Position numbers and translations under genes: made by a program. Source: Kyrpidia spormannii (GTDB taxonomy: Bacteria; Bacillota; Bacilli; Kyrpidiales; Kyrpidiaceae). Taken from it: 64,000 bases of DNA. The stretch spans positions 620,001-684,000 of the forward strand of contig NZ_CP024955.1 of NCBI RefSeq assembly GCF_002804065.1, in the 5' to 3' direction. How positions within the stretch are numbered: the first letter of the stretch is position 1; every line of letters begins with the position of its first letter. Below are positions 7,412-55,770 of the stretch, in pieces. The notes under the pieces were generated by a model that ran no database searches, was not told where the DNA came from, and was given only the letters and a program-made list of their open reading frames with translations.

Positions 7412-7424
7412 CTGCGTTTCGCCT

Positions 7425-8171: not shown

Positions 8172-8205
8172 GCTGTCCACTCCTCGCGTTTGGCTTTTAG
8201 GCTCC

Positions 8206-9483: not shown

Positions 9484-9514
9484 GTCTCTTTCGGCCCACC
9501 CCTTTCTATCGCCG

Positions 9515-10798
9515 TCAGTGAATCAGATACCGGAGGTACACATATGCGGCGCTGATCGCGATCGATAGGATCATCAAGGGAAATCCGAGGATGAGGTACT
9601 GCACAAAGGAAATCCGGTGTCCTTCTTTATCTGCCAACCCCGCCACGATCAGATTGGCACTGGCCCCGATTAGGGTTCCATTCCCTCCAAGGCAAGCGCC
9701 GAGAGATAAGCTCCACCACAGCGGATCCAAGTTTGTGAGGCCCATGTGTCCCATTTCTTGGACCATCGGGATCATGGTGGCGACGAAGGGGATGTTGTCC
9801 AAAAACGCGGAAACAAGGGCACTCATCCACAGAATCAACATAACGGTCGCATTCAATCTCCCCCCCGTTAACTCCAGGGCAGCCCGGGCCAAAGTTTCGA
9901 TCACACCCGTTTTTACGAGACCGGCAATGACCACAAACAGACCGGTAAAAAAGAAAATCGTGGTCCATTCGACCTTGGCCAGGGCCCTCTCCACTTGCTT
10001 TTCGTCGGTTAACAGGAGAAGTACAAAGGCCCCGGATAAAGCGATGGTCGCACTATCCAAGTGAAGCTTTTGATGAAGAAAAAAACCGAAAATCGTCAGG
10101 GCCAAGACACTGACGCTCTTTTTCAATAGCACGGGATTTGTGATTTCAGTTTTTTCCTCCATTGTCATCAGGGTCTCCTTGCGTTCGGCCGACGCGCGAA
10201 GAGATCGGTGAAAAATAAGGGCCATTAATCCGATGGTCACCACTAAAATGATCGCGGAAACGATGCCTAAGTTATTGATAAAATCAAGAAACGTGAGGTT
10301 TGGGTTTGCACTTCCGATCATGATGTTCGGCGGGTCACCAATGAGGGTGGCGGTACCGCCAATATTGGAAGCCAGAATCTGTGCCATTAAATAAGGGTAA
10401 GGGGAGATCCCCAGTCGTTGCGTCACGTTAAAAGTGACGGGCACCATCAGCAAAACCGTTGTTACATTATCCAAAAATGCGGATACCACAGCGGTGACGA
10501 CTGCCAGTGCGACTAAAATCAGAATCGGCTCACCCCTGGCTTTTTTGGCCGTCCAAATCGCCAGGTATGAGAACACCCCGGTTTGCGCAGTAATGTTTAC
10601 GAGAACCATCATTCCGATTAATAAACCTAGCGTATTAAAATCAATGTGATGGATGGCCGTGTCCTGGTCGACGATGCCTAATAAAACCACCAGTGCCGCG
10701 CCGACCATACTGATGATCGCACGGTGAACCCATTCGGATACGATAAACGCATAGGTGATCACAAAAATTCCTACGGCCAATAGAGCTGTATGATCCAT
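9515..10798 (-). CDS. ArsB/NhaD-family ion transporter (copy 1)
   Basis: A 427-residue paralogue of the downstream transporter, with the same signatures: SAFLDNVTTVLLMVPVTFNV, ASNIGGTATLIGDPPNIMIG and GGNGTLIGASANLIVAG. ATG 10798 is chosen because GGAGG lies 5 nt before it and the resulting N-terminus aligns with that of copy 2. The longer frame from 10837 has no signal. The two copies form a tandem duplication that has diverged clearly, so they may work on different ions or as a heteromer. Both are expected in the cytoplasmic membrane. Confidence 0.88.
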   Translation of the reverse strand: MDHTALLAVGIFVITYAFIVSEWVHRAIISMVGAALVVLLGIVDQDTAIHHIDFNTLGLLIGMMVLVNITAQTGVFSYLAIWTAKKARGEPILILVALAVVTAVVSAFLDNVTTVLLMVPVTFNVTQRLGISPYPYLMAQILASNIGGTATLIGDPPNIMIGSANPNLTFLDFINNLGIVSAIILVVTIGLMALIFHRSLRASAERKETLMTMEEKTEITNPVLLKKSVSVLALTIFGFFLHQKLHLDSATIALSGAFVLLLLTDEKQVERALAKVEWTTIFFFTGLFVVIAGLVKTGVIETLARAALELTGGRLNATVMLILWMSALVSAFLDNIPFVATMIPMVQEMGHMGLTNLDPLWWSLSLGACLGGNGTLIGASANLIVAGLADKEGHRISFVQYLILGFPLMILSIAISAAYVYLRYLIH

Positions 10799-10930
10799 CA
10801 TGTCCTCCGGCGCGCCTCCCCTGCTACTATACCACATGGAGCCTAGGTTATACCAAAGCGTTTTAGTGTCTGCCTTTGTAGCTTGTCCGCATGGGCTCTA
10901 ACTCCGAAAAGGATACCAGATCCACTAAAT

Positions 10931-10959
10931 TTGAAAAGACAAAGCAGGTTCGGTAATAT
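10931..10959 (+). promoter_or_regulatory. Probable sigma-A promoter of metH
   Basis: TTGAAA (10931-10936) and TAATAT (10954-10959) with a 17-bp spacer lie about 100 bp before the metH start. I looked for an S-box or cobalamin riboswitch in the leader and did not find one. Confidence 0.5.
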
Positions 10960-11057
10960 AGGCGTGAAATGACCGCGGTGGGTAGGAAGAGTGTTTTGAT
11001 GGCATCGTCATGTGGGCTCGATTTTTGAACTGTCCGCTGTGCCAAGGGAGGTGGGGC

Positions 11058-14000
11058 ATGACGTTGGGACAGAATATCCAATCGGTTCAGCTGGCAAAGA
11101 GGCGCCCGGAGCTTCTGGAGCGCCGCCTCAAAGAGGCGATTCTGGTGCTGGACGGGGCAATGGGGACGATGATCCAGCAACAGGGCTTAACAGCCGCGGA
11201 TTTTGGCGGCGAGGCCCAGGAGGGGTGCAATGAGGTCCTCAACTTAACCCGTCCGGACGTCATCACCTCCATCCACGAGGCCTATCTCGAAGCCGGGGCG
11301 GACATCATTGAAACCAATACGTTTGGGGCCACCCGGGTGGTGCTGGCCGAGTACGGGCTCGAGGGGAAAGCCTACGCCATCAACCGGACGGCGGCGGAGT
11401 TGGCCCGGCGGGCGGCGGATGGGTACAGCACGCCGGATCGGCCGCGTTTTGTGGCCGGGGCCATGGGTCCCACCACCAAAACCCTGTCGGTGACCGGGGG
11501 GATCGATTTTGACACCCTGGCGGCAGCCTACGCCGAACAGGCGAAGGGGCTGCTGGACGGCGGAGTGGACCTCCTTTTGGTGGAGACCGCCCAGGACACC
11601 CTTAACGTCAAGGCGGCGGGCGTGGGGATCCACCGGGCTTTTGCTGAGCTGGGTTTTGAAGTGCCGGTGATGATTTCCGGGACCATCGAACCCATGGGGA
11701 CCACCTTGGCCGGCCAGGGGATAGACGCCTTTTATGTTTCGGTGGAGCACCTTCACCCCGTCGCCGTGGGGCTCAACTGTGCCACGGGGCCGGAGTTTAT
11801 GACCGATCATCTGCGGACGCTCAGCGGCCTCGCGAAGACTGCGGTCAGCTGCTATCCGAACGCGGGGCTGCCGGACGAGGAAGGCCACTACCACGAATCT
11901 CCCCAGAGCCTCGCCGAAAAAATGGCGGGGTTTGCGCGGCAGGGGTGGGTCAATGTGGTGGGCGGGTGCTGCGGAACGACTCCGGAGCATATCCGGGCCC
12001 TGGCCCAGGCCGTCCGCGGGCTTCCCCCCCGCACCCCGGCGGCGGACCATCCGCCGGCGGTGTCCGGAGTAGAGGCGGTGTTCCTCGAGGGCGACAATCG
12101 GCCGCTGTTGGTCGGGGAGAGGACCAATGTCATCGGGTCCAGGAAATTTCGCGAACTCATCCAATCCGGGCGGTTCGAAGAAGCGGCGGAGATTGCCCGG
12201 GCCCAGGTGAGGGGCGGGGCCCAGATCATCGATGTATGCCTCGCGGACCCCGATCGGGACGAGTACGCGGACATGGACCAGTTTCTCAAATATGTGACCA
12301 GAATGGTCAAAGTGCCGCTCATGATCGACTCCACAGACCCCCGGGTCGTGGAGCTGGCTCTTCAGCGCTCCCAGGGGAAAGCTATTATCAATTCGATCAA
12401 TTTAGAGGACGGGGAAAAGCGCTTTGCCCAAGTCGCGCCTCTCGCCCGGCGCTACGGCGCGGCGGTGGTGGTGGGGACCATCGACGAGGAGGGTATGGCG
12501 GTAACCCGGGAGCGCAAATTGGCGGTGGCCAAACGCTCCTACCAACTTTTGACTGAAGAATACGGGATTCCCCCGGAGGACCTGATCTTTGATCCCCTGG
12601 TATTCCCGGTGGGGACCGGGGATGAGACCTACGTCGGGGCGGCGGCGGAGACGGTGGCTGCCCTCCGGATGCTGAAGGAGCGGTTTCCCCGCAGTGCCAC
12701 CATCCTCGGGATCAGCAATGTGTCCTTCGGCCTGCCTCCCGCCGGCCGGGAGGTGCTCAATGCGGTATTCCTGTACCATTGCACCAAGGCCGGATTGGAT
12801 TACGCCATCGTCAACCCTGAAAAGCTTCAGCGCTACGCCTCCATTCCCGAAGAGGAGCGCCGCTTGGCCGAGGCGCTTCTCTTTGAAACGGGACAGGAGA
12901 CCCTGGCCCGGTTCCACGATCGCTTCAAAGACCGACCCGCCGGCCCGCCGGTGCGCCGGGACACCCTCTCCCTGAACGAGAGGCTGGCCCGCTGTGTGGT
13001 GGAAGGGTCGAAGGAGGGGCTTTTCGATGATCTCGCCGAGGCCCTTCAGAGCGCCTCTCCCATAGAGATCATCAACGGGCCGTTGATGGCGGGCATGGAT
13101 GAGGTGGGGCGGCTTTTTAATGACAACCAACTGATCGTGGCCGAGGTGCTCCAGAGCGCCGAGGTCATGAAGGCGGCGGTGGCCTATCTCGAACCGCACA
13201 TGGAAAAGGCGGAGACGGCGAAAAAAGGCAAGATCCTCCTGGCCACGGTCAAGGGGGATGTCCATGACATCGGCAAGAATCTCGTGGAGATCATCCTCAG
13301 CAACAACGGGTTCGAAGTGGTGAATCTGGGCATCAAAGTGGCGCCGGAGGTGTTAATCGAGGCGGTCCGGCGTGAGGAACCCGATGCCATCGGTCTCTCG
13401 GGCCTCCTCGTGAAAAGTGCCCAGCAGATGGTGGTCACGGCCCAGGACCTCCGGGCGGCGGGCGTATCGCTGCCCCTTCTCGTCGGCGGTGCGGCATTGA
13501 CGGCGAAATTCGCTTATACCCGTATCGCCCCGGAGTACGAGGGTTTGGTTCTTTATGCCAAAGACGCCATGGAGGGGCTGGAGATCGCCAATCGGCTGGC
13601 CGATCCCGAGGGGCGTCCGGAGTTGGAGAGGAAGACGGCAGAATTGCGGGCCTCCCTGACCGATCGCCCAGCCGCTCCGGCCGTTTCAACCGGTTCCAGG
13701 CCGAGGAGGTCATCGGTGAGTCGCACCGTCCCCGTGGCGGTCCCCCCGGATTGTCGCCACCACCTGTGGCGGGATTATCCTTTTGACCACGTTCGGCCTT
13801 ACATCAATCTCCAAATGTTGCTGGGCCGCCATATGGGGCTGCGGGGGAACGTGGACAAGCTCCTCGCCGAGAGGGATCCGAAGGCCGTGGAGTGGGTGGA
13901 GCGGCTGAATGCCTTGATTGCCGAGGCCAAGGGGGAGGGGTTGCTGCGGCTTCACGCCGTGTACCAATTCTTCCCCAGTCAGAGCGAAGGAGACGACATC

Positions 14001-37094: not shown

Positions 37095-38351
37095 TCATTG
37101 AATGGCTGTCTCCGTTGACGCAGTTGTTACTCGTTGTTTAATGGGAGCCGTTTCTTTAAGGCCAAATCCAACCAGTGCGCAGACCAAGGCACCGGCTGCG
37201 GCAATGTATAGTGGAGCAGACAGACCGAATTGATCTGCAGCTATGCCGGCGAGCGTCGGAGCAATCGTTCCACCAACCAATTCCCCGATCAGCTGCGTCA
37301 AAGAAATTGCTGTTGCCGCAACCCCCAGCGGAAGGGATTCGCTCGGTATAATCACCATGAACAGCGGAAATACGCCGTTACCAACCGTTGTCACAAGGCT
37401 GATCAGCATCATTACGGCAAGGGATCCGTGAACGGTTGCCAGCAGTAACGGTGATAAGATTGCTACAAACGAGAACAGAATCAAAGTCGGTTTTCTTCCC
37501 AGTTTATCGGAAATCGTCGGGATTATTATGGTCCATAAAAAGTTCCCCAGCCCCACGGCCGACATGATCAGCCCCATCTCTCCAGCGGAGAAATGATCTG
37601 CCTCCACGAAGAATGTAGGAGCAAAGGTAGTGAATACAAACAACCATGTCATGAAGAATGCTGATATGACGACGCACAGCCACACATTCCGATGCATAAA
37701 AACCTTACGGTAATCTGCCCAACTTGCTTTTGTATGAACTTGTCCCTGCAACGCCGGTTCCTTTACCTTTGGTTCCCTCATGTATTTTAAGAGAATAAAT
37801 GTCATCACCAAACCTGGAATTCCGACAATGTAGAACGCCGTACGCCATGAATAGTTCATAGCTATCACAGTAACAATCAGCGGCGTTAATGTCGCACCAA
37901 TCAAACTTGCGGCGCTTTGCACAAAGCCAATATTGAAGCCTCGTCGCCTTGACGAGGATTCTGCTGTGACAGCCGCCTGCGCAATTGGAAGTACCGGTCC
38001 TTCCGAGAGACCCATCAAAGCGCGCACAAGCAACATGTTTACAAACGATTTTGCAGCGCCTGACAGAAAGGAGCAGATCGAGAAAACGAACGTAATGGGA
38101 ACCAGCACTTTCTTTCGGGAGCCAATCAGGTCTGATGTTGAGCTGAAAATCCATCCCGAAATTGCCCAAGTGACTCCCAAGACCGAGGCAATCAGCCCGA
38201 GCTGCGCATTATTGAGTTTTAACTCTGGAGCGAAAAAGGGAAAAAGGAATGAAACGCTCAGCCTTTCCATAAACACAAATCCCCAAGTGAAGAACATCAT
38301 GAGCAAGATTCCATTCTCATAAGTAAGAAATTTCTGTTTTATTTTGTTCAT
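37095..38351 (-). CDS. MFS transporter (anion:cation symporter-like) of the aromatic island
   Basis: The 418-residue membrane protein has twelve predicted spans, the loop 2-3 region SDLIGSRKKVLVP (about 73-85) and ALMGLSEGPVLPIAQA, typical of the ACS branch that imports organic and aromatic acids. ATG 38351 follows GGTGGAGGAG. It is the last gene of a minus-strand cluster with an extradiol dioxygenase, a hydrolase and a ferredoxin, so it probably imports the substrate of that pathway. Base composition here becomes visibly more AT-rich than in the thiC region, which suggests transfer. Confidence 0.85.
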   Translation of the reverse strand: MNKIKQKFLTYENGILLMMFFTWGFVFMERLSVSFLFPFFAPELKLNNAQLGLIASVLGVTWAISGWIFSSTSDLIGSRKKVLVPITFVFSICSFLSGAAKSFVNMLLVRALMGLSEGPVLPIAQAAVTAESSSRRRGFNIGFVQSAASLIGATLTPLIVTVIAMNYSWRTAFYIVGIPGLVMTFILLKYMREPKVKEPALQGQVHTKASWADYRKVFMHRNVWLCVVISAFFMTWLFVFTTFAPTFFVEADHFSAGEMGLIMSAVGLGNFLWTIIIPTISDKLGRKPTLILFSFVAILSPLLLATVHGSLAVMMLISLVTTVGNGVFPLFMVIIPSESLPLGVAATAISLTQLIGELVGGTIAPTLAGIAADQFGLSAPLYIAAAGALVCALVGFGLKETAPIKQRVTTASTETAIQ

Positions 38352-38370
38352 GTCGGTCTCCTCCACCCGA

Positions 38371-38658
38371 TCAAATCTGAATCAGAATTTTCATGTCACT
38401 TGTGGGATACGTTTTGCATGCCAAAGTATAGTTTTGCAGCCTTTCGTCGTAGGGTAATCCCGAAACGGAACAAGTCCCCCTTCTGTACTCCCCCTCAACA
38501 ACTTTAATTTTGCACAATCCACATCCTCCCACCTTGCACGCGTACTTAATCCGAACCCCCTGAAGCCGCATCGCATCCAATAGACTCTGCTGGTTTGTGC
38601 ATGAAAAGAACGGTTTTTCTTTCTCATAAAAACTGTCTACAATCTCGACATTAAACAT
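38371..38658 (-). CDS. Plant-type 2Fe-2S ferredoxin (XylT-like)
   Basis: The 95-residue protein carries the four cluster ligands C41, C46, C49 and C81 in the CxxxxCxxC...C order of chloroplast-type ferredoxins. In TOL-type clusters XylT, a ferredoxin of this class, reactivates oxidised catechol 2,3-dioxygenase. The same job is likely here because the dioxygenase is two genes upstream and no ferredoxin reductase or Rieske oxygenase is present. ATG 38658 follows GGGTGAT; further in-frame starts lie upstream. Confidence 0.85.
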   Translation of the reverse strand: MFNVEIVDSFYEKEKPFFSCTNQQSLLDAMRLQGVRIKYACKVGGCGLCKIKVVEGEYRRGTCSVSGLPYDERLQNYTLACKTYPTSDMKILIQI

Positions 38659-38756
38659 AGGCATCACCCGTCTGAATGTTTTTGACCCCCAAGGGGAGGT
38701 TGTCATTGTCGGTGTAGGTAACGACAATGACAACCCGATTTCAAAGAATCTTGATG

Positions 38757-40532
38757 TTACGGTTTCTCTGGAATAACGGGAAGGAGTAGATGGGATTCTC
38801 TCCCTCTTCCCGTGTATACAGTCACCTTGCCTCCGTAAATGTGACTCGGTCGATCATCGGGATCTGCGTGCAGAAATGGTCCGCATCCTCGTGATGGATA
38901 ACGGTGAAATTGGGTCATCTCCTCGTCGAGTGCCCCGCTGTACTCGTAGTCCTTCCCGCGTACTGTCAAACCCAGGCGATATCCCTCGGGCACCACAATC
39001 GATGTCGGCCATATCTCAATGTCCAATTCGTAAATTTCTCCGGGTACCAACCATTCAACCTCTGTGTGCGTGTGATATGGCCGGTAGGGTAAACTGCGTT
39101 CCATGTCCAGCTTCCGATGTGAGGCTCGTAACCATCCCTGTGCTACCGGTGTATAGGCATCCATCGCTCCTCGAAAGACAACTTCTTCCCCGCTCGGGTT
39201 AAACAGCCGAAGCACTAGGAAGATATCCGCATCTTGTGTCGATGAACTGATGAACAATTTGGCTGCCAACGGCCCGGTGATCTCGGTTTCTTTTTCCATC
39301 GGGTGCGTATAGAAGGTTACTCCGTCACCAAGAGCCTCGTACGTCACAGAGGAATCATTTTCAGGCAATTCTTTGTTTAAAAGGAAACTTCTTGCATTAA
39401 GATAGTACTTTGTCCAGACTGTTCTCGGTATGGGCCAGGCGTCTTCTTCGCGCGCGACAAACTTATTCCCGACGTGTCTGATTTGAAGCAGTACCTTCGG
39501 TTTGTTGTCCCAGCCGTTGTCTTCGCCTTTCAGGAATCGATCGAAAAACTGCCTCTGCAGGTTCACGCCGTAGGGTGTGTAGAAGTGTGTCCAGTGCTCA
39601 AGCCCATGAACCTCCAACCATTTTTTCTCCGAAGCGGATTGCATAAATCCCTCAATATTTCCGCGCAGATGTAATCCTTGTCCACCCCAGTTGGCCGCAG
39701 AGAGCAACGGAATGTTGATTTGTGACCAGTCGACGCTCAATGTCTGATAGTACTCATCGAATAAGGGGTGCGCCTTGACCTCCGCCACCTTGTCCACTCG
39801 ATTACGCCGGAGCTCTTCTTCTGTAAACGTCTCAGGTCCTGCAACGGATTCCCCTGTGTGAGGATTCTTCCTTGCTCTGCTCCCGTACCCGTATTGCATC
39901 GGCACCTGCTTGGGAAGCCAACTATCGATGAACTGGCAACGGATACCTCCATGATAGTAGAATTCCCGATATAGATCGGACGTGCCCTCCCACGGAATGA
40001 TCGCCTTCAGATGCGGTGGCTGCAGTGCAGCGACCAGCCATTGATTGGCGGCGTAATATGAGATCCCAAGAAGACCGATGTTGCCATTGCTCCACGGTTG
40101 TTCAGCCGCCCACTCAATACACTCGTAGAAATCGTAAATTTCCTCCATTGACCATAAATTCTGTAGCCCTTCAGACCAACCGGCGCCACGAGAATCCACC
40201 CGCACGACGGCGTAGCCGTGCGGTATCCAGCGCTCTGGATCGGTGACTTCCCAACACTGGTACTTATTTGAGGAGCCCTCCGCTATTTCCGGGAAGTCTT
40301 TGAGCATTTGATTCCATTGGGCCGAATACGCTTCCTGAAATGACTGTCCCTTGGCATAAGGTCCATAAGACATGATGGTTGGGTAAGCGCCCTCTGGGGT
40401 CGGAAGAAACACATCCGCCCGCAGAACTACGCCATCCCTCATTTGAATTGGCACTTGCCACATAATCAGCATGTCGTCCCGAATTTCCGTACGCATATAC
40501 TGGTCGTCAACCATTTTTGTCGTGTTCGTCAT
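38757..40532 (-). CDS. CocE/NonD family hydrolase (X-Pro dipeptidyl-peptidase superfamily)
   Basis: The 591-residue enzyme has the S15-type alpha/beta-hydrolase core with nucleophile S158 in GLLGISYYA, the RVDSRGAGWSEG segment before it, and the C-terminal jelly-roll domain (about 390-580; YRLGLTVRGKDYEY) found in cocaine esterase and glutaryl-7-ACA acylase. It should cut an ester or amide. Its place between the dioxygenase and ferredoxin suggests it frees the phenolic substrate, or acts on a pathway product; this is inference. The ATG follows AGGTGGTGA. Confidence 0.85.
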   Translation of the reverse strand: MTNTTKMVDDQYMRTEIRDDMLIMWQVPIQMRDGVVLRADVFLPTPEGAYPTIMSYGPYAKGQSFQEAYSAQWNQMLKDFPEIAEGSSNKYQCWEVTDPERWIPHGYAVVRVDSRGAGWSEGLQNLWSMEEIYDFYECIEWAAEQPWSNGNIGLLGISYYAANQWLVAALQPPHLKAIIPWEGTSDLYREFYYHGGIRCQFIDSWLPKQVPMQYGYGSRARKNPHTGESVAGPETFTEEELRRNRVDKVAEVKAHPLFDEYYQTLSVDWSQINIPLLSAANWGGQGLHLRGNIEGFMQSASEKKWLEVHGLEHWTHFYTPYGVNLQRQFFDRFLKGEDNGWDNKPKVLLQIRHVGNKFVAREEDAWPIPRTVWTKYYLNARSFLLNKELPENDSSVTYEALGDGVTFYTHPMEKETEITGPLAAKLFISSSTQDADIFLVLRLFNPSGEEVVFRGAMDAYTPVAQGWLRASHRKLDMERSLPYRPYHTHTEVEWLVPGEIYELDIEIWPTSIVVPEGYRLGLTVRGKDYEYSGALDEEMTQFHRYPSRGCGPFLHADPDDRPSHIYGGKVTVYTGRGRESHLLLPVIPEKP

Positions 40533-40598
40533 GACTCACCACCTGTGCTGAGTGATGTTAAATCATGTTTGAAGACGGTACAGTGGCACTGTCTCAAC

Positions 40599-41513
40599 TC
40601 AAGTCACAACCGTAAAGTGATTTTCTTTCATCTCGCGTCCAATGTGCCCCACAGCTCTGAGCAACTGGTCAGCCGTCCACGTCATGGTTGGCCAGTCAGG
40701 GAATGTCTCATACCCTCCTGCGAACACTTCGTTTCGATTCCCCGCGGGATCAAAGAAGTAAATCGTCTGTCCTCGGCTCAGGCCGTGGATATCGGGTCCA
40801 AAGCCAACGGAAACATCGTTCATTCCCAGAATTTCACCGGCAATCCGAATCGCGTTCCAATCCATCACCTTATAACCGATGTGATGGAACTTCCCATTCA
40901 CACCGTTAATGAAAGCGATATCGTGTGTCTTATGAGTCGCAAACAGCCACGTTCCTATGACTTTCCCTTTTTCGCCTAACTCGGTCACCACTCGCTCGGA
41001 CACCCGGAAATTCATGCACTCGATAAAGAATCGCTCCATTAACCCGGGGTCTTCAGCGCTTAGAAGCATATGGTCAAGTTGCGGCACGCCAATTCCGATG
41101 AGATGCTTCGGGCGTAAAAGGGGATTGATGGTGCCGACCTCAGTGCCAACGTATTCAATGTCGTAATACAGCTCCATGATGTGTTCGGAAGGCAGGACGA
41201 CGCGAAGTCCTTCACCAACCGCCAAATTCTCACCCTTGCTCATTCGCATGACCGTGCATCCGAATTGGCGGGTTTTCCTCTCAAACTCGTCCAGTGCTTC
41301 TGGACCTGTAACCTTAAACCCAAATTTGTTCAGTCCCAGTCCGCCTTGCTCAAGGACGAGATGGTGGTGATCCCATTCATCCCACGCCTTGTAATACAGC
41401 CTGTCCGGTTCTTCGTGCATCAGCTTAAGCCCCAAGACATCCTCGTAATGCTTCCTTGCTTCTGAATTGTCTGTCGCACGCAGGTGAACGTAGCCCAAAC
41501 GAATGACGCCCAT
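40599..41513 (-). CDS. Extradiol ring-cleavage dioxygenase (catechol 2,3-dioxygenase type I)
   Basis: The 304-residue two-domain vicinal-oxygen-chelate enzyme has iron ligands H148 (PQLDHMLL), the His pair at 210-211 (KFHHIGYKV) and E262 (NRNEVFAGG), with FFDPAGNRNEVF as the family signature. It should open a catechol ring next to the hydroxyls using Fe(II) and O2. The precise catechol (catechol, homoprotocatechuate or other) is not certain. ATG 41513 lies 6 nt after GGAGGA. It is the first gene of the minus-strand cluster and diverges from a LysR regulator. Confidence 0.9.
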   Translation of the reverse strand: MGVIRLGYVHLRATDNSEARKHYEDVLGLKLMHEEPDRLYYKAWDEWDHHHLVLEQGGLGLNKFGFKVTGPEALDEFERKTRQFGCTVMRMSKGENLAVGEGLRVVLPSEHIMELYYDIEYVGTEVGTINPLLRPKHLIGIGVPQLDHMLLSAEDPGLMERFFIECMNFRVSERVVTELGEKGKVIGTWLFATHKTHDIAFINGVNGKFHHIGYKVMDWNAIRIAGEILGMNDVSVGFGPDIHGLSRGQTIYFFDPAGNRNEVFAGGYETFPDWPTMTWTADQLLRAVGHIGREMKENHFTVVT

Positions 41514-41631
41514 AGCCACTCCTCCAATGCGATAAATTTATGGTCAGCTTGTAAACCAGGCAAAGGCTTGTCCTCTTTTTCGGTCTTTTATCACCCCTCT
41601 GTGCTCTAAGACTGTTTAAGTTTTCCGTTTC

Positions 41632-41647
41632 TGATATCATGATATCA
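41632..41647. promoter_or_regulatory. 16-bp perfect palindrome upstream of the dioxygenase
   Basis: TGATATCATGATATCA is fully self-complementary and also a tandem repeat of TGATATCA. It lies 119 bp upstream of the dioxygenase start, within the block duplicated at 49408-49485, where the symmetry is partly lost. Confidence 0.5.
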
Positions 41648-41686
41648 ACAAAGCAGAAAACACGAAAATATCGATTATGAATCTCA

Positions 41687-41707
41687 GTAATCAGTGATCA
41701 TGATTAC
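41687..41707. promoter_or_regulatory. LysR-type dyad between the divergent genes
   Basis: GTAATCA (41687-41693) and TGATTAC (41701-41707) form a perfect 7-bp dyad with a 7-nt centre. It overlaps the probable -35 region of the LysR gene (TATACT -10 at 41716-41721), the usual place for an autoregulating LysR recognition site. Confidence 0.6.
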
Positions 41708-41756
41708 TTTTGTTGTATACTTTTTCGTATGAAATGACTACCGGGAGGTCGGATAT

Positions 41757-42671
41757 ATGGAGCTCAGACAATTGCGTTATTTTATTGTGGTTGCTGAGTA
41801 CTTGAATTTCACAGAGGCTTCAAAACGATTGTTTGTTGCTCAGTCAGCGGTGAGTCAACAGATTGCGAAATTAGAGCAACAAGTTGGGGTAAAGCTGTTC
41901 ACAAGAAATAAGCGCAGTGTTCAATTGACAAGTGCAGGAAAAACATTTCTAAAGGAAGCTATAGAAATTGTCAGGAAAACCGAAGAGGCAATTGACAAAA
42001 CCCACAAAGCGAATGTTGGGATTCTTGGGAATTTGAAAATTGGTTTCCTAGCAGCTCCTGTGAGGAAGTTTCTTCCTTCCCTGATTCGACACTTCAACAA
42101 CAAGTACCCGATGGTTGACATTGAATTGCATCATTTGAATCTCGCTCAACTAAATGAAAAACTGAACGCGGATGACTTGGATATTGTGTTTACCGTTTCC
42201 TTTGCCGTTCCTCAGTTTGGAGATTACGAATGCAAGAAGCTCTTTTCAGAATCCATTTGTGTATTTTTGCATCCTGAACATTCACTGTGTCAAAAACCGC
42301 GCCTTCGGATAGCTGATTTGGCGATGGAACCGTTTATTCTCAGAGATAGAGAAGAAGGTCCGCAGTGGTATGAATACATATTGATGATTTGCGCAAAAAA
42401 CGGTTTTCTCCCTAAAATAGCTCGTGAAACGCGGCACATTGAGACTGTTCTGATGTTTGTAGAGGCGGGACTAGGGATTACGATTCTCCCTCGGTACCTG
42501 GAGATGTATGCGAATCCATCCATTCGCATTATTGAGGTAGAAGATGAGAAAGACAGTTTTGATGTGGTGGTTTATCGGAAGAAAAGAAATATGAACCCAT
42601 CTGTACCGTTGTTCCTGAATGAAATGGACCACTTTGTTCACCGGGAGGTGGAACCTCCCTTAAGTGGCTAA
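41757..42671 (+). CDS. LysR-family transcriptional regulator
   Basis: The 304-residue regulator has the winged helix at the N-terminus (MELRQLRYFIVVAEYLNFTE, then AQSAVSQQIAKLEQQVGVKLF) and a periplasmic-binding-like effector domain (about 92-295). It resembles CatR/BenM/CatM-type activators that sense aromatic acids. The ATG follows GGGAGG. It diverges from the dioxygenase cluster, and the duplicated control region at 49408 suggests that it also controls the monooxygenase genes there. Confidence 0.88.
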   Translation: MELRQLRYFIVVAEYLNFTEASKRLFVAQSAVSQQIAKLEQQVGVKLFTRNKRSVQLTSAGKTFLKEAIEIVRKTEEAIDKTHKANVGILGNLKIGFLAAPVRKFLPSLIRHFNNKYPMVDIELHHLNLAQLNEKLNADDLDIVFTVSFAVPQFGDYECKKLFSESICVFLHPEHSLCQKPRLRIADLAMEPFILRDREEGPQWYEYILMICAKNGFLPKIARETRHIETVLMFVEAGLGITILPRYLEMYANPSIRIIEVEDEKDSFDVVVYRKKRNMNPSVPLFLNEMDHFVHREVEPPLSG

Positions 42672-47619: not shown

Positions 47620-47687
47620 GTGGTGCCGGCATGGGCGTTGAGTTGGTGGTGAAAGTCCACTGCAGGCGAGGCAGCACGAGTCTGCTA
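47620..47687 (+). mobile_element. Group IIC intron, 5' fragment
   Basis: GTGGTGCCGGCATGGGCG at the 5' end matches the start of group IIC introns such as that of Oceanobacillus iheyensis, and GGTGAAAGTCCAC follows as in those introns. The fragment stops at the TA (47686-47687) where the composite element begins. The sequence resumes at 54771. Confidence 0.75.
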
Positions 47688-48837
47688 GTGTCCTTTCAGG
47701 CAATGTAGTTGGATAAATCGGAAGGAATGTCCAGTTGTCTGTCGAATGATCATCCCAGGTGGTGATCATCATGTGCATCTTTGTCCGAGACCTGACACCT
47801 GAAGAGGGCAACAAACTTGTGAAGATTGCTCGCAAAGGATCCAACCCCGTTGAAGTGCGACGGGCTTTAGCCGTGTTGGCTTCCGCTCAAAAGATGAAGG
47901 TGCCGGAGATCTCCGAGTTGTATCACCTCTCTCAGGAGCACATTCGTCATATTATTCATGCCTTCAATCAGCATGGATTCGAGGCCTTAAAGCCTCGGTA
48001 CAAGGGCGGACGACCGCGGACCTTTACCGAAGAACAAAGAGCCGCGATCATTGAGTTGGCCCAGATCCCGCCAAACACCCTGGGTTTGCCCTTTACCCAT
48101 TGGTCACTGTCCAAGCTCAAAGAGGAGGCCGAAAGGCGGGGCATCGTGACCTCTATTAGCATTGAGACTATCCGTGTCATTCTGGAGGAAGCCGACATCA
48201 CCTACTAGCACACCAAGACATGGAAAGCCTCGAATGATCCTGACTTTGAGGTAAAAAAAACGAATCCAGTCGCTCTACCGGAATCCGCCCAAAGACGGAC
48301 GGGTCATCTGCGTTGACGAGTTTGGACCGTTGTCCATTCAGCCGTTTTCCGGTTGCGGATGGTACCCGAAAAGTCGGCCCGATCGATTGCCGGCAACGTA
48401 CCGCCGCACCCACGGGGTGAGGCACTTGTTTGCGGCTCTAGATCTGAAAGCGGATAAACTGTACGGGCACGTCTCATCCAGCAAGAAGCACCAGGATATT
48501 CTGCGTTTTCTCAAGGTGCTCCGCCGGCGGTATCACCGGTCTGAACGGCTGTACGTGGTCTTGGACAATTTTTCACCTCACAAGCATCGTACTGTGACTG
48601 AGTGGGCTGCAGAAAACAATGTAGAACTGGTTTTTACACCGACCCAGGCGTCATGGTTGAACCGAATCGAATGCCATTTTGCGCCGTTACGATCGTTTGT
48701 GTTGCGTGGGAGTCACTATCCAAATCACGAGGCGTTGGCCACAGCGATCCGGTCGTACCTGCGTTGGCGAAACAAGCACACCGCCATGCCAGACTTCTAC
48801 GTGAGCAAAAGAAGATCAAGGTTCTCTGAAGGGGCAC
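47688..48837 (+). mobile_element. IS630-family insertion sequence, copy 1
   Basis: A 1150-bp element with 12-bp inverted ends (GTGYCCYTTCAG) flanked by TA on each side (47686-47687 and 48838-48839), as expected for IS630/Tc1-type transposition. It is essentially identical to copy 2 apart from base 4 of the outer end. Confidence 0.9.
47771..48837 (+). pseudogene. IS630 transposase, split by an amber stop and a frameshift (copy 1)
   Basis: The first part (47771-48208) holds the helix-turn-helix DNA-binding domain (VPEISELYHLSQEHIRHII) and linker. It ends at TAG 48206-48208 where the homologous frame continues with HTKTWKASNDPDFEV. A run of eight As (48253-48260) then shifts the frame. The second part (48261 onward) has the DDE catalytic core: aspartates in VICVDEFG and VVLDNFSPHK and glutamate in WLNRIECHF. 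The frame runs past the element's end with no stop inside. ATG 47771 follows AGGTGG. Copy 2 carries the same lesions. Confidence 0.85.
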
Positions 48838-48933
48838 TAGTTTGACCCAGCGGTTCTCTTTATTCAATTTCCCGCCGAACGGAAGGAAAAAGTCATCGGG
48901 CAACAGAATCTGACGCTCAGTCGCTCGGTACAC
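48838..48933 (-). pseudogene. N-terminal fragment of an IS4/IS5-type transposase
   Basis: From a GTG at 48933 (GAGGTG upstream) the frame reads YRATERQILLPDDFFLPFG and then GKLNKENRWVKL, the opening of a DDE transposase of the IS4/IS5 group. It is cut off at the TA where IS630 copy 1 begins. The rest of the gene is absent here. Confidence 0.6.
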
Positions 48934-49054: not shown

Positions 49055-49246
49055 CTAAGTAATGAAGGCCGCATGAAGACGCCTGTGATTGTCAAATTCC
49101 GCGAACTCCATGATTGCGGTATACGCCTCGACACATGACCCGAATTTATGCCGGCTCAGGCATTCCTCCTCCAAAATCCGGTGATGTGCGCATTCATATT
49201 CGGTGTGAGGCTTGGAATGTGCTCATGCTCTACCCCCAGTTCAATT
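49055..49246 (-). pseudogene. Decayed IS3-family transposase (integrase core remnant)
   Basis: On the minus strand the pieces IELGVEHEHIPSLTPNMNAHI and, after a frame change, RILEEECLSRHKFGSCVEAY and FAEFDNHRRLHAAF can be read. They match the C-terminal integrase core of IS3-type OrfB proteins. A deletion or frameshift lies near 49180. No ends were found. The remaining 48934-49407 shows nothing else coding. Confidence 0.6.
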
Positions 49247-49407
49247 GGCGTCCATGAACACACGGAATCGATAGGGAGCCGAATTCCCTTACCAGCAGAT
49301 TGGCGGCAAAATCTTCGCCTTCCCGATCAATGAACAGGTTCCGTACTGTCTCTGAAAAACCATTCAATCCGGTACAATGGTTCCCGACGAACAAGAAGGT
49401 TGAAAGA

Positions 49408-49485
49408 GTAATCACCATTTCTGATAACTGAGATTCATAAAGTGAATTTCCGTGTTTTATGTCTTATTGATATTATACTGTCAGA
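49408..49485 (+). promoter_or_regulatory. Decayed duplicate of the dioxygenase control region
   Basis: This 78-bp block aligns without gaps to the minus strand of 41707-41630; I count 59 identical bases. It includes a GTAATCA arm, a fully conserved CTGAGATTCATAA stretch, CGTGTTTT and TTGATAT. A LysR-type site shared with the dioxygenase promoter is therefore likely, and would place the monooxygenase genes under the same regulator. Confidence 0.7.
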
Positions 49486-49525
49486 TCCTTAAAATTTCAG
49501 CTCATCACACTGGAGGAATGACTCT

Positions 49526-49600
49526 ATGGGTATGATTCGCTTGGGCTATGTTCACAAAGATAATTGGCACTTGTGTCCCGACAATGGACCGGTGAAATAG
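49526..49600 (+). pseudogene. Vestigial start of a second extradiol dioxygenase
   Basis: ATG 49526 follows TGGAGGA and opens a 24-codon frame whose first residues MGMIRLGYVH match the dioxygenase start MGVIRLGYVH; 25 of the first 30 bases agree with 41513-41484. Homology stops after ten codons and the frame ends at TAG 49600. The rest of the gene has been deleted, which placed the flavin reductase directly behind its promoter. Confidence 0.7.
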
Positions 49601-49616
49601 AGAGAAGAGATCATAT

Positions 49617-50198
49617 ATGATCGTTGTACCACCAACTGCAGGCCGGGAGGAAGATGATGGATACACAGAGTTGCGTTTCTGTTTTGGGCGATTTGCCACG
49701 GGTGTGACCGTGGTTACATATGAGTTCGGTGGGGGACCCCACGGAATAACGGTCAACTCCTTCACGTCGGTGTCTTTGGATCCGCCGTTGCTTCTGGGGT
49801 CCATTGATCGGCGGGCCAAAGCTTGCAATTCGCTGGACGGAGCTCCCTTCACTGTAAATGTCCTCACATCCGGCCAACAGGAGTTGGCGATGCATTTTGC
49901 AGGCAGACCGCAACCGGACGTTTCGCTTGAATGGGAAATGGGTGAGCGGGCTCCGAGGTTGTTCTGGGTTCTTGCATGGATGGAGTGTGTTCCGTGGCGC
50001 AGGTACGACGGAGGTGACCACGTTCTCTATACCGGGAAAATCATCCGTTACGATTATTGTGATGATCAACCGCTGATCTTTTTCACGGGGAATTTTGGGA
50101 TCCTCCCTTTTGCCGCAAAGGAAACGAGAAGAGCCGGGAGGAGGCGTCGACCGCCGCAGAGACGGGTACGTTGCGGATGTTGGCGGAGACAGTTTTGA
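49617..50198 (+). CDS. Flavin reductase, HpaC-like (partner of the monooxygenase)
   Basis: The 193-residue protein has the FMN-binding split-barrel: RFCFGRFATGVTVVT (about 20-34), GITVNSFTSVSLDPPLLLGSIDRRAK (about 43-68) and GDHVLYTGKIIRYD (about 133-146). It supplies reduced flavin to two-component monooxygenases such as the HpaB-type gene next to it. The last 28 residues are Arg/Cys-rich and unlike the family, so a frameshift near 50120 is suspected; the other two frames stay open past it. The start has only a weak GAGAAGAG site. The enzyme core looks complete. Confidence 0.8.
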   Translation: MIVVPPTAGREEDDGYTELRFCFGRFATGVTVVTYEFGGGPHGITVNSFTSVSLDPPLLLGSIDRRAKACNSLDGAPFTVNVLTSGQQELAMHFAGRPQPDVSLEWEMGERAPRLFWVLAWMECVPWRRYDGGDHVLYTGKIIRYDYCDDQPLIFFTGNFGILPFAAKETRRAGRRRRPPQRRVRCGCWRRQF

Positions 50199-50304
50199 TG
50201 TCTTGAACTCTGGGTGGAGGTGATGGAAGAAAGGCACGATACCTGAATGTCTGCTTAGTGCAGGATGAATGGGAACATTAAGAATGGAAAGGGGAAGTGA
50301 TCCA

Positions 50305-51858
50305 ATGGCGGTTAATTTAACTTTGAGTCGTCCCCTGACGGGGCAGGAGTATCTGGAGAGTTTGCGCGACAGCCGGGAAGTATGGATTTACGGAGAAAGG
50401 GTCAAGGATGTGACCACCCATCCCGCGTTCCGCAATTCGGCGAGAATGCTGGCACGCATGTATGACGCCCTTCATGATCCCGATTATCAGGATGTCCTAC
50501 TGACCGACACCGACACGGGCAACAGCGGAAAGACGCACCCATTTTTTAAGGCGCCCAAAAGTGCCCACGATCTGGTTGCGGCCCGGGATGCAATCATGGC
50601 CTGGCAACGGATCAGCTATGGATGGATGGGGCGCAGTCCGGACTATAAAGCGAGTTTTCTCGGAACACTGGCTGTTAATTCCGAGTTCTATAAACCATTT
50701 GATGAAAATGCAAAAAGCTGGTATAAGCGTGCCCAAGAACAGGTGCTGTTCTTGAACCATGCGATCGTGAATCCTCCGGTGGACCGGAACAAGCCACCTC
50801 ACGAGGTTAGCGACGTGTTCATGCGCGTGACGAAAGAAACGGATGGCGGCATTTACGTAAGCGGCGCCAAAGTGGTGGCAACTGGATCAGCTCTGACCCA
50901 CGCCAACTTTATGGCGCCCTTCGCAACGTTGCCGGTTCAGAAAGAAGAGTTCGCCTTGACGGTTATCGTTCCGATGGACACCCCTGGAGTTAAGTTACTT
51001 TGTCGCCCCTCATATGAATACACGGCCGCCGTTATGGGCAGCCCGTTCGATTATCCGTTGTCCAGCCGTTTGGATGAGAACGATGCCGTGTTGATTTTTG
51101 ACAATGTTTTTGTCCCTTGGGAAGACGTCTTGACCTACCGCGATGTGGAGAAGGCAAACCAGTTTTTCCCGATGTCGGGGTTTGTCCCCCGTTTTACATT
51201 CCACGGCTGCACTCGACTTGTCGTGAAACTCGAACTGATCGCCGGGTTGCTCATTAAGGCGCTTGAGTCAACCGGAGCAAAAGATTTTCGCGGGGTGCAG
51301 GCCCGGCTGGGTGAAGTCATCGCTTGGCGGCACCTGTTCTACTCCATCACCGAGGCTATGGCCCACGCTCCCGTTCCTTGGATCGGTGAGTACGTCAACC
51401 CGGACGTTCGCCATGCACAGGCCTATCGTGTCTTTGCACCAATAGCCTATCCCCGCATTAAAGAAATTATTGAGACGGATGTGGCTAGTGCCTTGGTGTA
51501 TATGAACTCGAATGCGGTCGATTTCAAAACCCCCGAGATTCGCCCCTATTTAGATAAGTATCTGCGGGGTTCAAACGGGTACGATGCCGTTTCAAAGATG
51601 AAGGTGATGAAAGCGCTCTGGGATGCCGTGGGGAGTGAGTTCGGCAGCCGACATGAGCTGTATGAGCGAAACTATGCCGGGAATTACGAAAACATTCGCT
51701 TAGAAACCTTGCTTTTTGCCCAAGCCATGCAAGATGTGGATAGCTACGTCAAGTTCGCCGAGACAATGATGAATGAATACGATATAGACGGGTGGACGGT
51801 GGAGGACCTCATAAATCCGGACGATGTGAATCTTCATCTTAAAAAGTTAAAGAAGTAG
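50305..51858 (+). CDS. Flavin-dependent aromatic monooxygenase, large component (HpaB/PheA family)
   Basis: The 517-residue protein is of the 4-hydroxyphenylacetate 3-monooxygenase family, with an acyl-CoA-dehydrogenase-like fold. Typical segments are [22 protein letters not shown] at the start, [23 protein letters not shown] (about 185-207), and [17 protein letters not shown]-like [13 protein letters not shown] near 266-278. It should ortho-hydroxylate a phenol with FADH2 from the upstream reductase, giving a catechol for extradiol cleavage. Homologues act on 4-hydroxyphenylacetate, phenol or anthranilate; the substrate here is unresolved. ATG 50305 follows AAAGGGGAAG; an upstream ATG at 50269 is in frame. 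Confidence 0.88.
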
Positions 51859-52229
51859 GGACAGTCTTGCCCAAATACTTGACCACACTTCGGCCGCCAC
51901 GAGCCTCGGGTTTAGGCCCCAGGACTAAGGCGGCCGATGTTAATGTAAGACTTTTTTTAGGATATACTGGCAAACATTGTTTCTCCGGATGAGATTTCCG
52001 GTAAGTAAGGAGTTCTAATGCTACTTGGACGGATGAAAGATGGTTGAGCCTTTTTCGATGTCCCGTTGTCCCGGAACCGCCGACAAGATTCCTATTGGCG
52101 GGTTGATCTCAATATGCCCATAATATGGTTGATCAGCCATATGTTGGGTGGTTCAGCCCATGTTGAGCCAAGGTTAGGTTCTTGGTTACCTGGCCCAGGA
52201 GCTCCGCCTTCTATGATCGCGTGCCGTTT
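51859..52229. other. Non-coding stretch after the monooxygenase
   Basis: No gene is seen in these 371 bases. They hold a probable terminator hairpin (51891-51936), a T7 run (51952-51958) and AT-rich sequence running to the end of the next transposase. One end of that insertion sequence is probably here, but I could not define its inverted repeat. Confidence 0.5.
51891..51936 (+). terminator. Inverted repeat after the monooxygenase, probable terminator
   Basis: CGGCCGCC (51891-51898) and GGCGGCCG (51929-51936) form an 8-bp perfect stem around a 30-nt loop. Seven Ts follow 15 nt later. Confidence 0.45.
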
Positions 52230-53293
52230 TTAGGACACGCTTCGAACCAAGCTCCTCATGCGTTCTTGCCGCTTCTCCCGCACCCTCCCCAATGCCATCG
52301 CCAGCATCACGCACAAAGCCAAGCCGCAGCGTAACCGCATCTTCCCCAGCCCTCGAACGGTGTGCCGTTCAAACCCAAACGAGACGTTCAATCGGCGGTT
52401 CACCCGTCCCACCGCGGTCCTGTACCGGTATTCCTTCGCCCATTTGTAGCTCTCCCGGGCAATCGGGGTGAATATCCGTCGGTCCACCGCGAGCGCCACC
52501 CGCACCCCTCCGGCCACGGGGCACTGTTCCCGCCCTTTACACGTGACCCCGTACGCCTTGGCTGGGCAACCTTCCTTCAGCGTCCCCCGATCTTTTTCAA
52601 ATCCGCCGTTGCTCATCCGCCGCCGGCCCCCTGTCTCTGGACAGTAACAGTACACCGCTCCCCGCTCGTCATACACCACGTTCGTATGTCCTGGTAATAA
52701 CCGCGTTTGCTCTCCATCTTTCCACAGCCGCCTCGTGTCGATCACGGGCTTGATCTCATACTCATCCCAGCAGCGACTCAGGAGTTTCGAGTCGTCGTAC
52801 CCCCGATCGGCCGTCAGGACCTCTGCCTTTTTCAACATCTCGGGATGTCGTTTCTCCAGCTTATCCAGCAGGACATGTCCTTCTTTGACGTCGGAGCGCG
52901 ACCCCTTGGTCACCGTATACGCCACAGGCAATTCATGCTTGGCGTCGACCACCAGGTGGAGCTTATAGCCAAACCACCGAACCACTTTCTCCCATGTCCC
53001 CCCATCCTCGCGCGACCCACGATAGGTTTTTACCCCGTATGCTGCATCCAGATCCCGCCGTCCGTCTTCCTTCTTTTCTTTCGAGGGACGGGACGCCCAC
53101 GAGGCGATCGTCTTACTGTCCATCGCCAAACGACGCCCGAACTCCGGAAGCTCCTCACTCAGGGCTTTCACCAACGCGTCGAACATCGATTCGATCCACG
53201 ATCCGTGCCTCACCAAGCTGCGGAGAAATCGGGTATAGGCGGCTGCGCTGGGAACGGCGTGCAATCCACAGTAAGCGTAAAATGGCGCACAGC
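52230..53293 (-). pseudogene. DDE transposase (IS1182/IS4-like) with its N-terminus cut off by a group II intron
   Basis: The frame reads CAPFYAYCGLHAVPSAAAYTRF just inside the break, then LAMDSKTIASWASR with the first aspartate, LVVDAKHELPVAYTVTKGSRSD, and VLTADRGYDDSKLL with the second aspartate. A conserved late segment REQCPVAGG follows. The C-terminal end (about 340 residues counted from a TTG at 53264) is intact. The first hundred or so residues are missing because intron sequence begins at 53294 on the opposite strand. Confidence 0.75.
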
Positions 53294-53618
53294 GTGCCTA
53301 GCAAAGCTAGGCACAACTTGCCGGTGCAAGTCCGGCCGAGGTAGGGGCCAGATCGCCTCGTAGCTAGCAGGCATCTGGTGGTGAGAGCCTAAGGGTGAAG
53401 CCCTGCGAAAAGCCCGGATGGGTGAAGCAAAACTGCAGGCCGTAACATGAAGTGAATCCCGCCGCATCGTTAATTTAGACCCGAAAAGGACAAGAGGAAG
53501 CCGAGCCGCGTGTGCACCGGCGAAGGCCATGGAACGTGTGAAGAATCTGGAAGGGCAGCACGGAAGAATCCTCCGGTGTAGAGGGAGCGGTATGTAGTGA
53601 CAGTTGTGCCTGGAACTA
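53294..53618 (+). mobile_element. Second group II intron, 5' fragment
   Basis: The sequence begins GTGCCTAGC and carries pieces typical of a widespread bacterial group II intron: GCCGGTGCAAGTCCGGC, GGTGGTGAGAGCCTAAGGG, CTGCAGGCCGTAAC and GACAGTTGTGCCTGGAAC. It differs from the group IIC intron that surrounds the composite element. It is inserted in a transposase gene and is itself cut at TA (53617-53618) by IS630 copy 2. The reverse transcriptase and 3' domains are absent. Confidence 0.7.
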
Positions 53619-54685
53619 GTGCCCCTTCAGAGAACCTTGATCTTCTTTTGCTCACGTAGAAGTCTGGCATGGCGGTGTGCTTGTTTCGCCAACGCAGGTA
53701 CGACCGGATCGCTGTGGCCAACGCCTCGTGATTTGGATAGTGACTCCCACGCAACACAAACGATCGTAACGGCGCAAAATGGCATTCGATTCGGTTCAAC
53801 CATGACGCCTGGGTCGGTGTAAAAACCAGTTCTACATTGTTTTCTGCAGCCCACTCAGTCACAGTACGATGCTTGTGAGGTGAAAAATTGTCCAAGACCA
53901 CGTACAGCCGTTCAGACCGGTGATACCGCCGGCGGAGCACCTTGAGAAAACGCAGAATATCCTGGTGCTTCTTGCTGGATGAGACGTGCCCGTACAGTTT
54001 ATCCGCTTTCAGATCTAGAGCCGCAAACAAGTGCCTCACCCCGTGGGTGCGGCGGTACGTTGCCGGCAATCGATCGGGCCGACTTTTCGGGTACCATCCG
54101 CAACCGGAAAACGGCTGAATGGACAACGGTCCAAACTCGTCAACGCAGATGACCCGTCCGTCTTTGGGCGGATTCCGGTAGAGCGACTGGATTCGTTTTT
54201 TTTACCTCAAAGTCAGGATCATTCGAGGCTTTCCATGTCTTGGTGTGCTAGTAGGTGATGTCGGCTTCCTCCAGAATGACACGGATAGTCTCAATGCTAA
54301 TAGAGGTCACGATGCCCCGCCTTTCGGCCTCCTCTTTGAGCTTGGACAGTGACCAATGGGTAAAGGGCAAACCCAGGGTGTTTGGCGGGATCTGGGCCAA
54401 CTCAATGATCGCGGCTCTTTGTTCTTCGGTAAAGGTCCGCGGTCGTCCGCCCTTGTACCGAGGCTTTAAGGCCTCGAATCCATGCTGATTGAAGGCATGA
54501 ATAATATGACGAATGTGCTCCTGAGAGAGGTGATACAACTCGGAGATCTCCGGCACCTTCATCTTTTGAGCGGAAGCCAACACGGCTAAAGCCCGTCGCA
54601 CTTCAACGGGGTTGGATCCTTTGCGAGCAATCTTCACAAGTTTGTTGCCCTCTTCAGGTGTCAGGTCTCGGACAAAGATGCACAT
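53619..54685 (-). pseudogene. IS630 transposase, split by an amber stop and a frameshift (copy 2)
   Basis: Carries the same TAG (complement at 54248-54250) and the same run of eight As (complement 54196-54203) as copy 1. The DNA-binding part is read from 54685 and the DDE core in the second frame. The catalytic frame runs out of the element into intron sequence. The identical lesions show that the element was copied after they arose. Confidence 0.85.
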
Positions 54686-54768
54686 GATGATCACCACCTG
54701 GGATGATCATTCGACAGACAACTGGACATTCCTTCCGATTTATCCAACTACATTGCCTGAAAGGGCAC
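53619..54768 (-). mobile_element. IS630-family insertion sequence, copy 2 (inverted)
   Basis: A 1150-bp inverted copy of the element at 47688-48837, with TA on both sides (53617-53618 and 54769-54770). Its inner end joins the second group II intron fragment and its outer end joins the group IIC intron. Confidence 0.9.
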
Positions 54769-54770
54769 TA

Positions 54771-55770
54771 GCCAAAGGCAAGGGTGTCCATCGCGAGGTC
54801 GAATCTGAAGGAAGCCGGAGGCAAACCCAAGGCCCGATGAACAACAACCTCATACGAGGCTACGCCGTTCGGATGAGCTGGCACGACACAGCGAAATCCA
54901 AGGCTGCCAAGGGGCGGTGGAGCATATGAGGCGGCGCGGGGGGAAGGTCAACGTTCTTATCCGGGTAGGCCTGCCGGATACACCAGGGAAACTGGCAACC
55001 CGGGTGCGTTCGCGAGAAGGACAAAGACAGCCGAAAACCCTGGACAGGGACTGCCCACGGGAGAAAGTGGTGAAGCCACGAGGGACCGTGGAGAGCCGAG
55101 CCCTTCTCCGGCACAAAGCGGAGCTTCACCTCGCGGAGAACAAGGTGACGGCCTGATGGAGAAGGTGGTGGCCAGGCAGAACATGCTGGCCGCCCTGAAG
55201 CGGGTGGAGCAGAACAAGGGTGCCCCCGGCGTGGACGGCATTCCCACGGAAAACCTCCGGGAACAGATCCGAGCCGAGTGGCCGCGCATCCGGGAAGAGC
55301 TGCTCACGGGGACCTACCGACCGCAGCCCGTGCGCCGGGTCGAAATCCCGAAACCCGGGGGAGGCAAGTGGATGCTAGAGATCCCCACCGTGATGGACCG
55401 CCTGATCCAGCAGGCGTTCCTGCAAGTGCTGACGCCGATCTTTGACCCGCAATTTTCGGAGGTCAGCTACGGGTTTCGCCCCGGAAGAAGGGCTCACGAT
55501 GCGGTGAGATGTGCGCGGCAGTACGTGGAGGAGGGATACGAATGGGCCGTGGACATGGACCTGGAAAAGTTCTTTGACCGGGTGAACCATGACATCCTCA
55601 TGGCCCGGGTAGCCCGGAAGGTAACGGACAAACGAGTGCTCAAGGTCATTCGCCGGTATCTCCAGGCAGGGATCATGGTGAACGGGGTGGTCATGGAAAG
55701 AGAGGAAGGGACACCACAGGGTGGGCCCCTGAGTCTACTGCGGGCGAATATCCTTCTGGATGCGGGGTAG
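54771..55770 (+). mobile_element. Group IIC intron, continuation with truncated reverse transcriptase
   Basis: The intron resumes after the TA with GCCAAAGGCAAGGGTGTCC, then AATCTGAAGGAAGC and GGCAAACCC, the same order as in known group IIC introns. Domains II-III and the reverse transcriptase start (55156) follow. The intron stops abruptly near 55763; domains V and VI are missing, so it cannot splice. Confidence 0.8.
55156..55770 (+). pseudogene. Group II intron reverse transcriptase, truncated before YADD
   Basis: The 204-residue fragment has the start of an LtrA-type protein: NKGAPGVDGIPTENL (RT0/1), RRVEIPKPGGGKWMLEIPTVMDRLIQQA, SYGFRPGRRAHDAV and the first catalytic aspartates in WAVDMDLEKFFDRVNHD. 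It reaches EGTPQGGPLS and then becomes atypical and ends at TAG 55770. The YADD box, maturase domain X and any nuclease domain are lost, so no activity is expected. Confidence 0.85.

Follow-up and report, generated by a model that had tools for sequence, protein, structure and literature searches.

A duplicated LysR-type control region with the start of a dioxygenase gene precedes a flavin reductase-monooxygenase pair in Kyrpidia spormannii

Introduction

Among the described systems in which a LysR-type protein governs the breakdown of aromatic compounds, one of the closest to the locus studied here is para-nitrophenol degradation in Pseudomonas sp. WBC-3 (PnpR/PnpM), where one LysR regulator controls several separate operons by way of dyads that resemble each other and have their T-N11-A core near -65, the classical position of LysR-type regulatory sites (PMC5603801). 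The same study itself suggests a patchwork assembly of the para-nitrophenol operons. In Pigmentiphaga kullae H8, redundant operons for 3-bromo-4-hydroxybenzoate are under LysR and MarR control (PMC12016517). We herein analyze a stretch of 64,000 nucleotides of the Kyrpidia spormannii chromosome (NZ_CP024955.1, positions 620,001 to 684,000; hereafter the window, whose coordinates are used unless stated otherwise), in which a LysR-linked dioxygenase promoter is found a second time, in front of genes for a two-component monooxygenase.

Results

The first-pass annotation had proposed that a LysR-type control region and the start of an extradiol dioxygenase gene are duplicated within the window (Table 1). 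Positions 49408-49485 align without gaps to the complement of 41707-41630, and our recount gave exactly the 59 identities in 78 positions claimed before, while the next best place for this 78-mer on either strand of the window reaches 37/78. In a formal local alignment, 49381-49640 and the 41.4-41.76 kb region scored 47, which is significant against 1000 dinucleotide-preserving shuffles (mean 13.4, sd 2.2, maximum 26). Moreover, a search of the whole 3.35-Mb genome with 49380-49640 returned only the query itself and genome positions 661630-661711 (window 41630-41711; 76%, E 1.5e-9). The dioxygenase start was likewise matched as claimed: 49526-49555 is identical to it at 25 of 30 positions (19/30 at the second-best place), the changes within the ten codons are mostly silent, the ribosome-binding sites are similar too (CTGGAGGAATG versus TTGGAGGAGTG), and block 49504-49556 reaches a score of 29, whereas its shuffled versions stay at or below 14. 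Hence, the duplication of the control region is real. The two matching parts are separated in the 41.5-kb copy by about 76 bp of additional leader, missing from the 49.4-kb copy. Among 60 related genomes, the promoter block was not found outside the present one, and the six-frame translation of the region upstream of 49408 shows no trace of another LysR gene, and nothing but the weak transposase remnant listed in Table 1.

Table 1. Features of the two control regions and their surroundings (window coordinates)
Feature	Position	Strand	Basis or remark
Extradiol dioxygenase, catechol 2,3-dioxygenase family	40599-41513	-	GTG start 41519 also possible
Control block of the dioxygenase promoter	41630-41707	-	alignment; candidate -35 TTTTCG 41668-41663, -10 TATCAT 41644-41639
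Operator 1, perfect dyad GTAATCA-N7-TGATTAC, T-N11-A inside	41687-41707	.	pattern search, alignment
LysR-type regulator, intact	41757-42671	+	HTH_1 84.7 bits and LysR_substrate 135.2 bits, both above cut-off (Pfam)
IS630-family element, left copy	47684-48842	+	1159 bp; sequence comparison
Weak rve-type transposase remnant	49058-49213	-	rve_3 E 0.01, under family cut-off; just upstream of copied promoter
Control block, second copy	49408-49485	+	ungapped alignment, shuffles, whole-genome search
Operator 2, GTAATCA-N7-TGATAAC	49408-49428	.	1 arm base and 4/7 spacer bases changed; pattern search, alignment
Candidate promoter TTTCCG-18-TATTAT	49447-49476	+	position relative to operator as in 41.7-kb copy
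Alternative promoter-like site TTGATA-17-TAAAAT, 10/12 to consensus	49467-49495	+	stronger; its -10 absent from 41.7-kb copy
Ribosome-binding site GGAGGA and first ten dioxygenase codons	49512-49555	+	alignment, shuffles
24-codon remnant frame MGMIRLGYVHKDNWHLCPDNGPVK	49526-49600	+	stop 16 bp before reductase ATG 49617
Junction, 90 bp, unlike rest of genome	49556-49645	.	includes second half of 24-codon frame
Flavin reductase	49617-50198	+	Flavin_Reduct 109.5 bits; native ATG 49654/49657 frameshifted, in-frame start 49617
HpaB-type two-component flavin monooxygenase, intact	50305-51858	+	93% aa identity to chromosomal copy
IS630-family element, right copy, inverted	53614-54772	-	1159 bp, 99.9% identical to left copy

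Within the duplicated block, the putative operator has drifted less in its arms (13 of 14 positions identical) than in its spacer (3 of 7; Fisher p 0.025, on small numbers). The exact pattern GTAATCA-N7-TGAT(T/A)AC occurs at two sites in the 3.35-Mb genome; as it was derived from these two, the informative part is that there are no further ones. A third site with one mismatch, at genome position 303918, falls within an unrelated frame and was judged to be a chance match. Among the Bacilli searched, the proteins closest to the 41757 regulator share 48% (L076), 47% (L081), 45% (L077) and 43% (L082) identity with it. Loci L076 and L081 carry GTAATAA-N7-TTATTAC and L082 the one-base variant GTCATAA-N7-TTATTAC, in each case 86-98 bp ahead of the regulator gene, in the interval that separates it from a divergently oriented gene. 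At L076 and L081 the product of this divergent gene was identified by its score as an HsaA-like flavin monooxygenase, and the L082 protein visibly belongs to the same kind. At L077 the dyad is weaker but stands in the same register, and the neighbours of the regulator are an FAA-hydrolase gene and a partial frame resembling a ring-cleavage dioxygenase. The presence of a similar dyad in the same place beside three LysR relatives independently supports the operator call, so that the case for this predicted assignment is strong.

Both copies have a weak candidate -35/-10 pair (TTTTCG-18-TATCAT at 41.7 kb) at an identical distance from the operator, with the dyad centre 29 bp before the candidate -35 and at about -65 of the predicted start. 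As judged from these predicted starts, both promoters would thus carry the interrupted dyad and T-N11-A core near -65 that characterize LysR-regulated promoters, and it is very likely that the duplicated region is a true operator-promoter. The 49.4-kb copy contains in addition a sigma-70-like TTGATA-17-TAAAAT site, because of which some regulator-independent expression of this copy is possible.

The 41757 protein, with an N-terminal HTH_1 and a C-terminal LysR substrate-binding domain, is the sole close member of its regulator clade in the present genome. The neighbouring dioxygenase scores 316.4 bits over its full length against TIGR03211, whose cut-off is 320.2, and its relatives at 58-60% identity come from Rhodococcus rhodnii and Phytohabitans only, i.e., they are actinobacterial. 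One R. rhodnii contig (L033, 5969-14432) displays an unusual catabolic and biosynthetic mix on one strand: a dioxygenase, a 1784-aa polyketide-synthase-like gene, a reductase and a monooxygenase. In the sampled genus mates of K. spormannii we found no close relative of the LysR-dioxygenase pair, the composition of which is unlike its surroundings (42% GC in the LysR gene and 36% in the promoter block; 57% in the window). On the strand opposite the dioxygenase mRNA leader (41520-41630), positions 41557-41570 make up a weak hairpin that resembles a terminator. Behind the dioxygenase (37095-41519) there are genes for a CocE/NonD-type hydrolase, a 2Fe-2S ferredoxin and an MFS transporter; given these neighbours, the natural substrate may be taken up in ester or amide form.

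As the first-pass annotation had stated, a flavin reductase and a monooxygenase gene lie behind the copied promoter. The monooxygenase matches HpaB_N (322 bits) and HpaB (212 bits) over its full length and conserves the catalytic-type motifs GR-x-PDYKA and NHAIV, with scores below both HpaB equivalog cut-offs (TIGR02310, 693 versus 885; TIGR02309, 300 versus 480). The pair corresponds to the two leading genes of an intact operon 1.37 Mb away (L040; genome 2.038-2.048 Mb), at 83.8% DNA identity over 2224 bp (49646-51861); the homology starts beside the native ribosome-binding site of the reductase and ends with the monooxygenase. That operon (L040 positions 2131-11764) is a complete meta-cleavage operon, in which the reductase, the HpaB-type monooxygenase and an extradiol dioxygenase are followed by a ferredoxin, an aldehyde dehydrogenase, a hydratase-like protein, an acetaldehyde dehydrogenase, an aldolase and a decarboxylase-like protein; a GntR-type gene lies upstream, and the GTAATCA-N7 operator is absent. 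Synonymous divergence between the window and chromosomal copies is 0.74 for the monooxygenase and 0.63 for the reductase (omega 0.05 and 0.29, respectively), and thus both genes fit one duplication. The monooxygenase was long under purifying selection. Its window copy carries Y206F and G207A at adjacent residues that are invariant in 16 relatives, and shows a modest excess of derived changes (11, versus 6 in the chromosomal copy). For the reductase, the count of derived changes (4 versus 5) did not support a relaxation peculiar to the window copy.

A single base is missing after the native ATG of the reductase, a frameshift that the first-pass annotation had overlooked. The native start now yields a 17-codon frame, and 49617 is the only start from which the whole reading frame stays open. 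Hence, the reductase would have to use this upstream ATG. As read from the sequence, either it would be made from there, possibly with its translation coupled to that of the 24-codon frame, or it may be replaced by another reductase. The 90-bp junction between codon 10 of the dioxygenase and the start of homology at 49646 was compared with the dioxygenase gene, including its leader and 3' end, and with the leader of the chromosomal reductase, and nothing beyond chance was found; the best comparison, with the chromosomal hpaB-dioxygenase junction (shuffled frequency 0.03 in six comparisons), is unconvincing. Dioxygenase sequence after codon 10, including the gene end and the region downstream, was not found at the junction.

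The 49.4-51.9 kb segment is bracketed by the inverted IS630 pair, which encloses the copied promoter, the reductase, the monooxygenase and a further IS-type transposase frame (52230-53264). Two near-identical IS copies flanking a cargo form a composite-transposon-like layout.

Discussion

Our results suggest that a LysR-responsive promoter, together with its ribosome-binding site and ten codons of a catechol-2,3-dioxygenase-type gene, recombined onto a duplicate reductase-monooxygenase pair. The pair would have been sourced from the main ring-cleavage operon and the joining would have taken place inside the IS-rich segment, so that the duplicate left its old control, where the GntR-type gene lies upstream, and passed under the 41757 regulator acting in trans. 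The GTAATCA-N7-TGAT(T/A)AC dyads, each about 65 bp ahead of a predicted promoter start, would be the binding sites of the regulator, which in the presence of an aromatic inducer would switch on the genes for hydroxylation (49.6-51.9 kb) along with that for ring cleavage (40.6-41.5 kb). Taken as a whole, we consider this explanation, promoter capture with joint LysR control, to be probable, if far from assured. That the 41757 regulator controls both loci, as already suggested in the first-pass annotation, we would by itself rate as fairly probable. The idea of a shared regulon gains independent support from the conserved operator dyad, which relatives of the regulator also have; the 49.4-kb promoter would then drive the monooxygenase genes as part of that regulon. 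Regulator binding, the inducer, activation and joint physiological use are what we infer, rather than observe. No third genome with the promoter-gene junction was present among those searched, and hence the direction and timing of the events are not readable from relatives.

Possibly, the whole 49.4-51.9 kb segment was transferred ready-made from a sister species or strain, and the two monooxygenases are not in-genome duplicates. The synonymous divergence of 0.6-0.7 is large for a recent duplication within the genome, the region is IS-rich and of mixed composition, and the genus sample contains nothing close to the LysR-dioxygenase pair; however, a donor was not found among the genomes searched, the genus sample being two other genomes. 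We regard this transfer as conceivable though somewhat unlikely. It is compatible with the capture having occurred in that sister lineage, and the weights that we give to the rival accounts overlap.

A less likely explanation is that the 49.4-kb promoter is a relic, either deaf to the regulator or placed before a dying operon. Given the frameshifted reductase start and the Y206F and G207A changes, the operon may be decaying, and the new constitutive-like promoter site points in the same direction. Nevertheless, the operator arms were kept where the spacer drifted, and the monooxygenase is open over its full length with its catalytic-type motifs intact and an omega of 0.05. The opposite possibility, that of a working rewired operon in which the captured promoter and start moved the duplicate monooxygenase into the dioxygenase regulon and a new translation start, the 24-codon leader coupled to ATG 49617, rescues the frameshifted reductase, is in our opinion also rather improbable.

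The first-pass annotation had instead envisaged that the duplicated LysR promoter once preceded an ancestral dioxygenase-reductase-monooxygenase operon, and that a later deletion left only the first ten codons of the dioxygenase. The promoter, the ribosome-binding site and codons 1-10 indeed stand in their natural order and frame, and on the R. rhodnii contig a dioxygenase of the nearest class (58%) lies upstream of a reductase and a monooxygenase (48% and 61%) on the same strand, with the polyketide-synthase-like gene between them. However, this scenario did not hold up well against the junction itself, which retains neither dioxygenase sequence past codon 10 nor the end of that gene and matches neither the dioxygenase nor the chromosomal reductase leader beyond chance. 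Moreover, the pair stems, from 49646 onward, from the chromosomal operon, where the dioxygenase is downstream; the monooxygenase is likewise upstream of the dioxygenase in nine of the ten Bacilli genomes that have both genes together. An intact dioxygenase-reductase-monooxygenase operon was not found in the sampled Bacilli (about 400 genomes searched for the dioxygenase and about 300 for the monooxygenase). We therefore consider the deletion quite unlikely. Since the genes behind the copied promoter derive from a different operon and nothing of the dioxygenase body is left, promoter capture is the simpler account and appears to fit best. Finally, a chance similarity or the plain AT-richness of promoters, to which the 36% GC of the block might point, is practically ruled out by the shuffled alignments and the genome-wide E-value.

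Promoter capture would make this locus a readable case of catabolic regulon growth, in which an operator, a promoter and ten codons were copied to a position ahead of two duplicated enzyme genes, with the arms of the operator retained while the rest drifted. Additionally, the relatives of the regulator provide a testable operator, GTAATNA-N7-TNATTAC, for a LysR clade that adjoins ring-hydroxylating or ring-cleaving genes in Bacilli.

The chromosomal layout described here is new; the type of rewiring is already known, since regulators that reach several operons by way of similar dyads have been reported, as has patchwork assembly. As in the PnpR system, a single LysR-type regulator is associated with separate operons of one aromatic pathway, although joint control is a prediction in our case; the operator is GTT-N11-AAC there and GTAATCA-N7-TGATTAC here, and the PnpR operons have promoters of their own, whereas the second promoter in K. 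spormannii is a visible copy of the first that includes the start of the first gene. P. kullae H8 similarly has duplicate catabolic genes with different regulators in one genome, but its enzymes and regulators are others, and its abstract describes no promoter captured along with a truncated gene start (PMC12016517). Like the HpaB/HpaC-type systems (Pfam HpaB_N, HpaB, Flavin_Reduct; PDB 4oo2, 6qyh), the 49.4-kb locus combines the gene of a full-length oxygenase with that of a small flavin reductase in a single transcription unit; it differs from them in its TIGR02310 score below the cut-off and in its frameshifted native reductase start. The nearest counterparts of the regulator itself, at L076, L081 and L082 (43-48% identical), have the same dyad architecture and position; there, however, the divergent target is a monooxygenase of the acyl-CoA-dehydrogenase fold with one operator copy, whereas in K. 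spormannii it is a dioxygenase, and a second operator lies 7.7 kb away.
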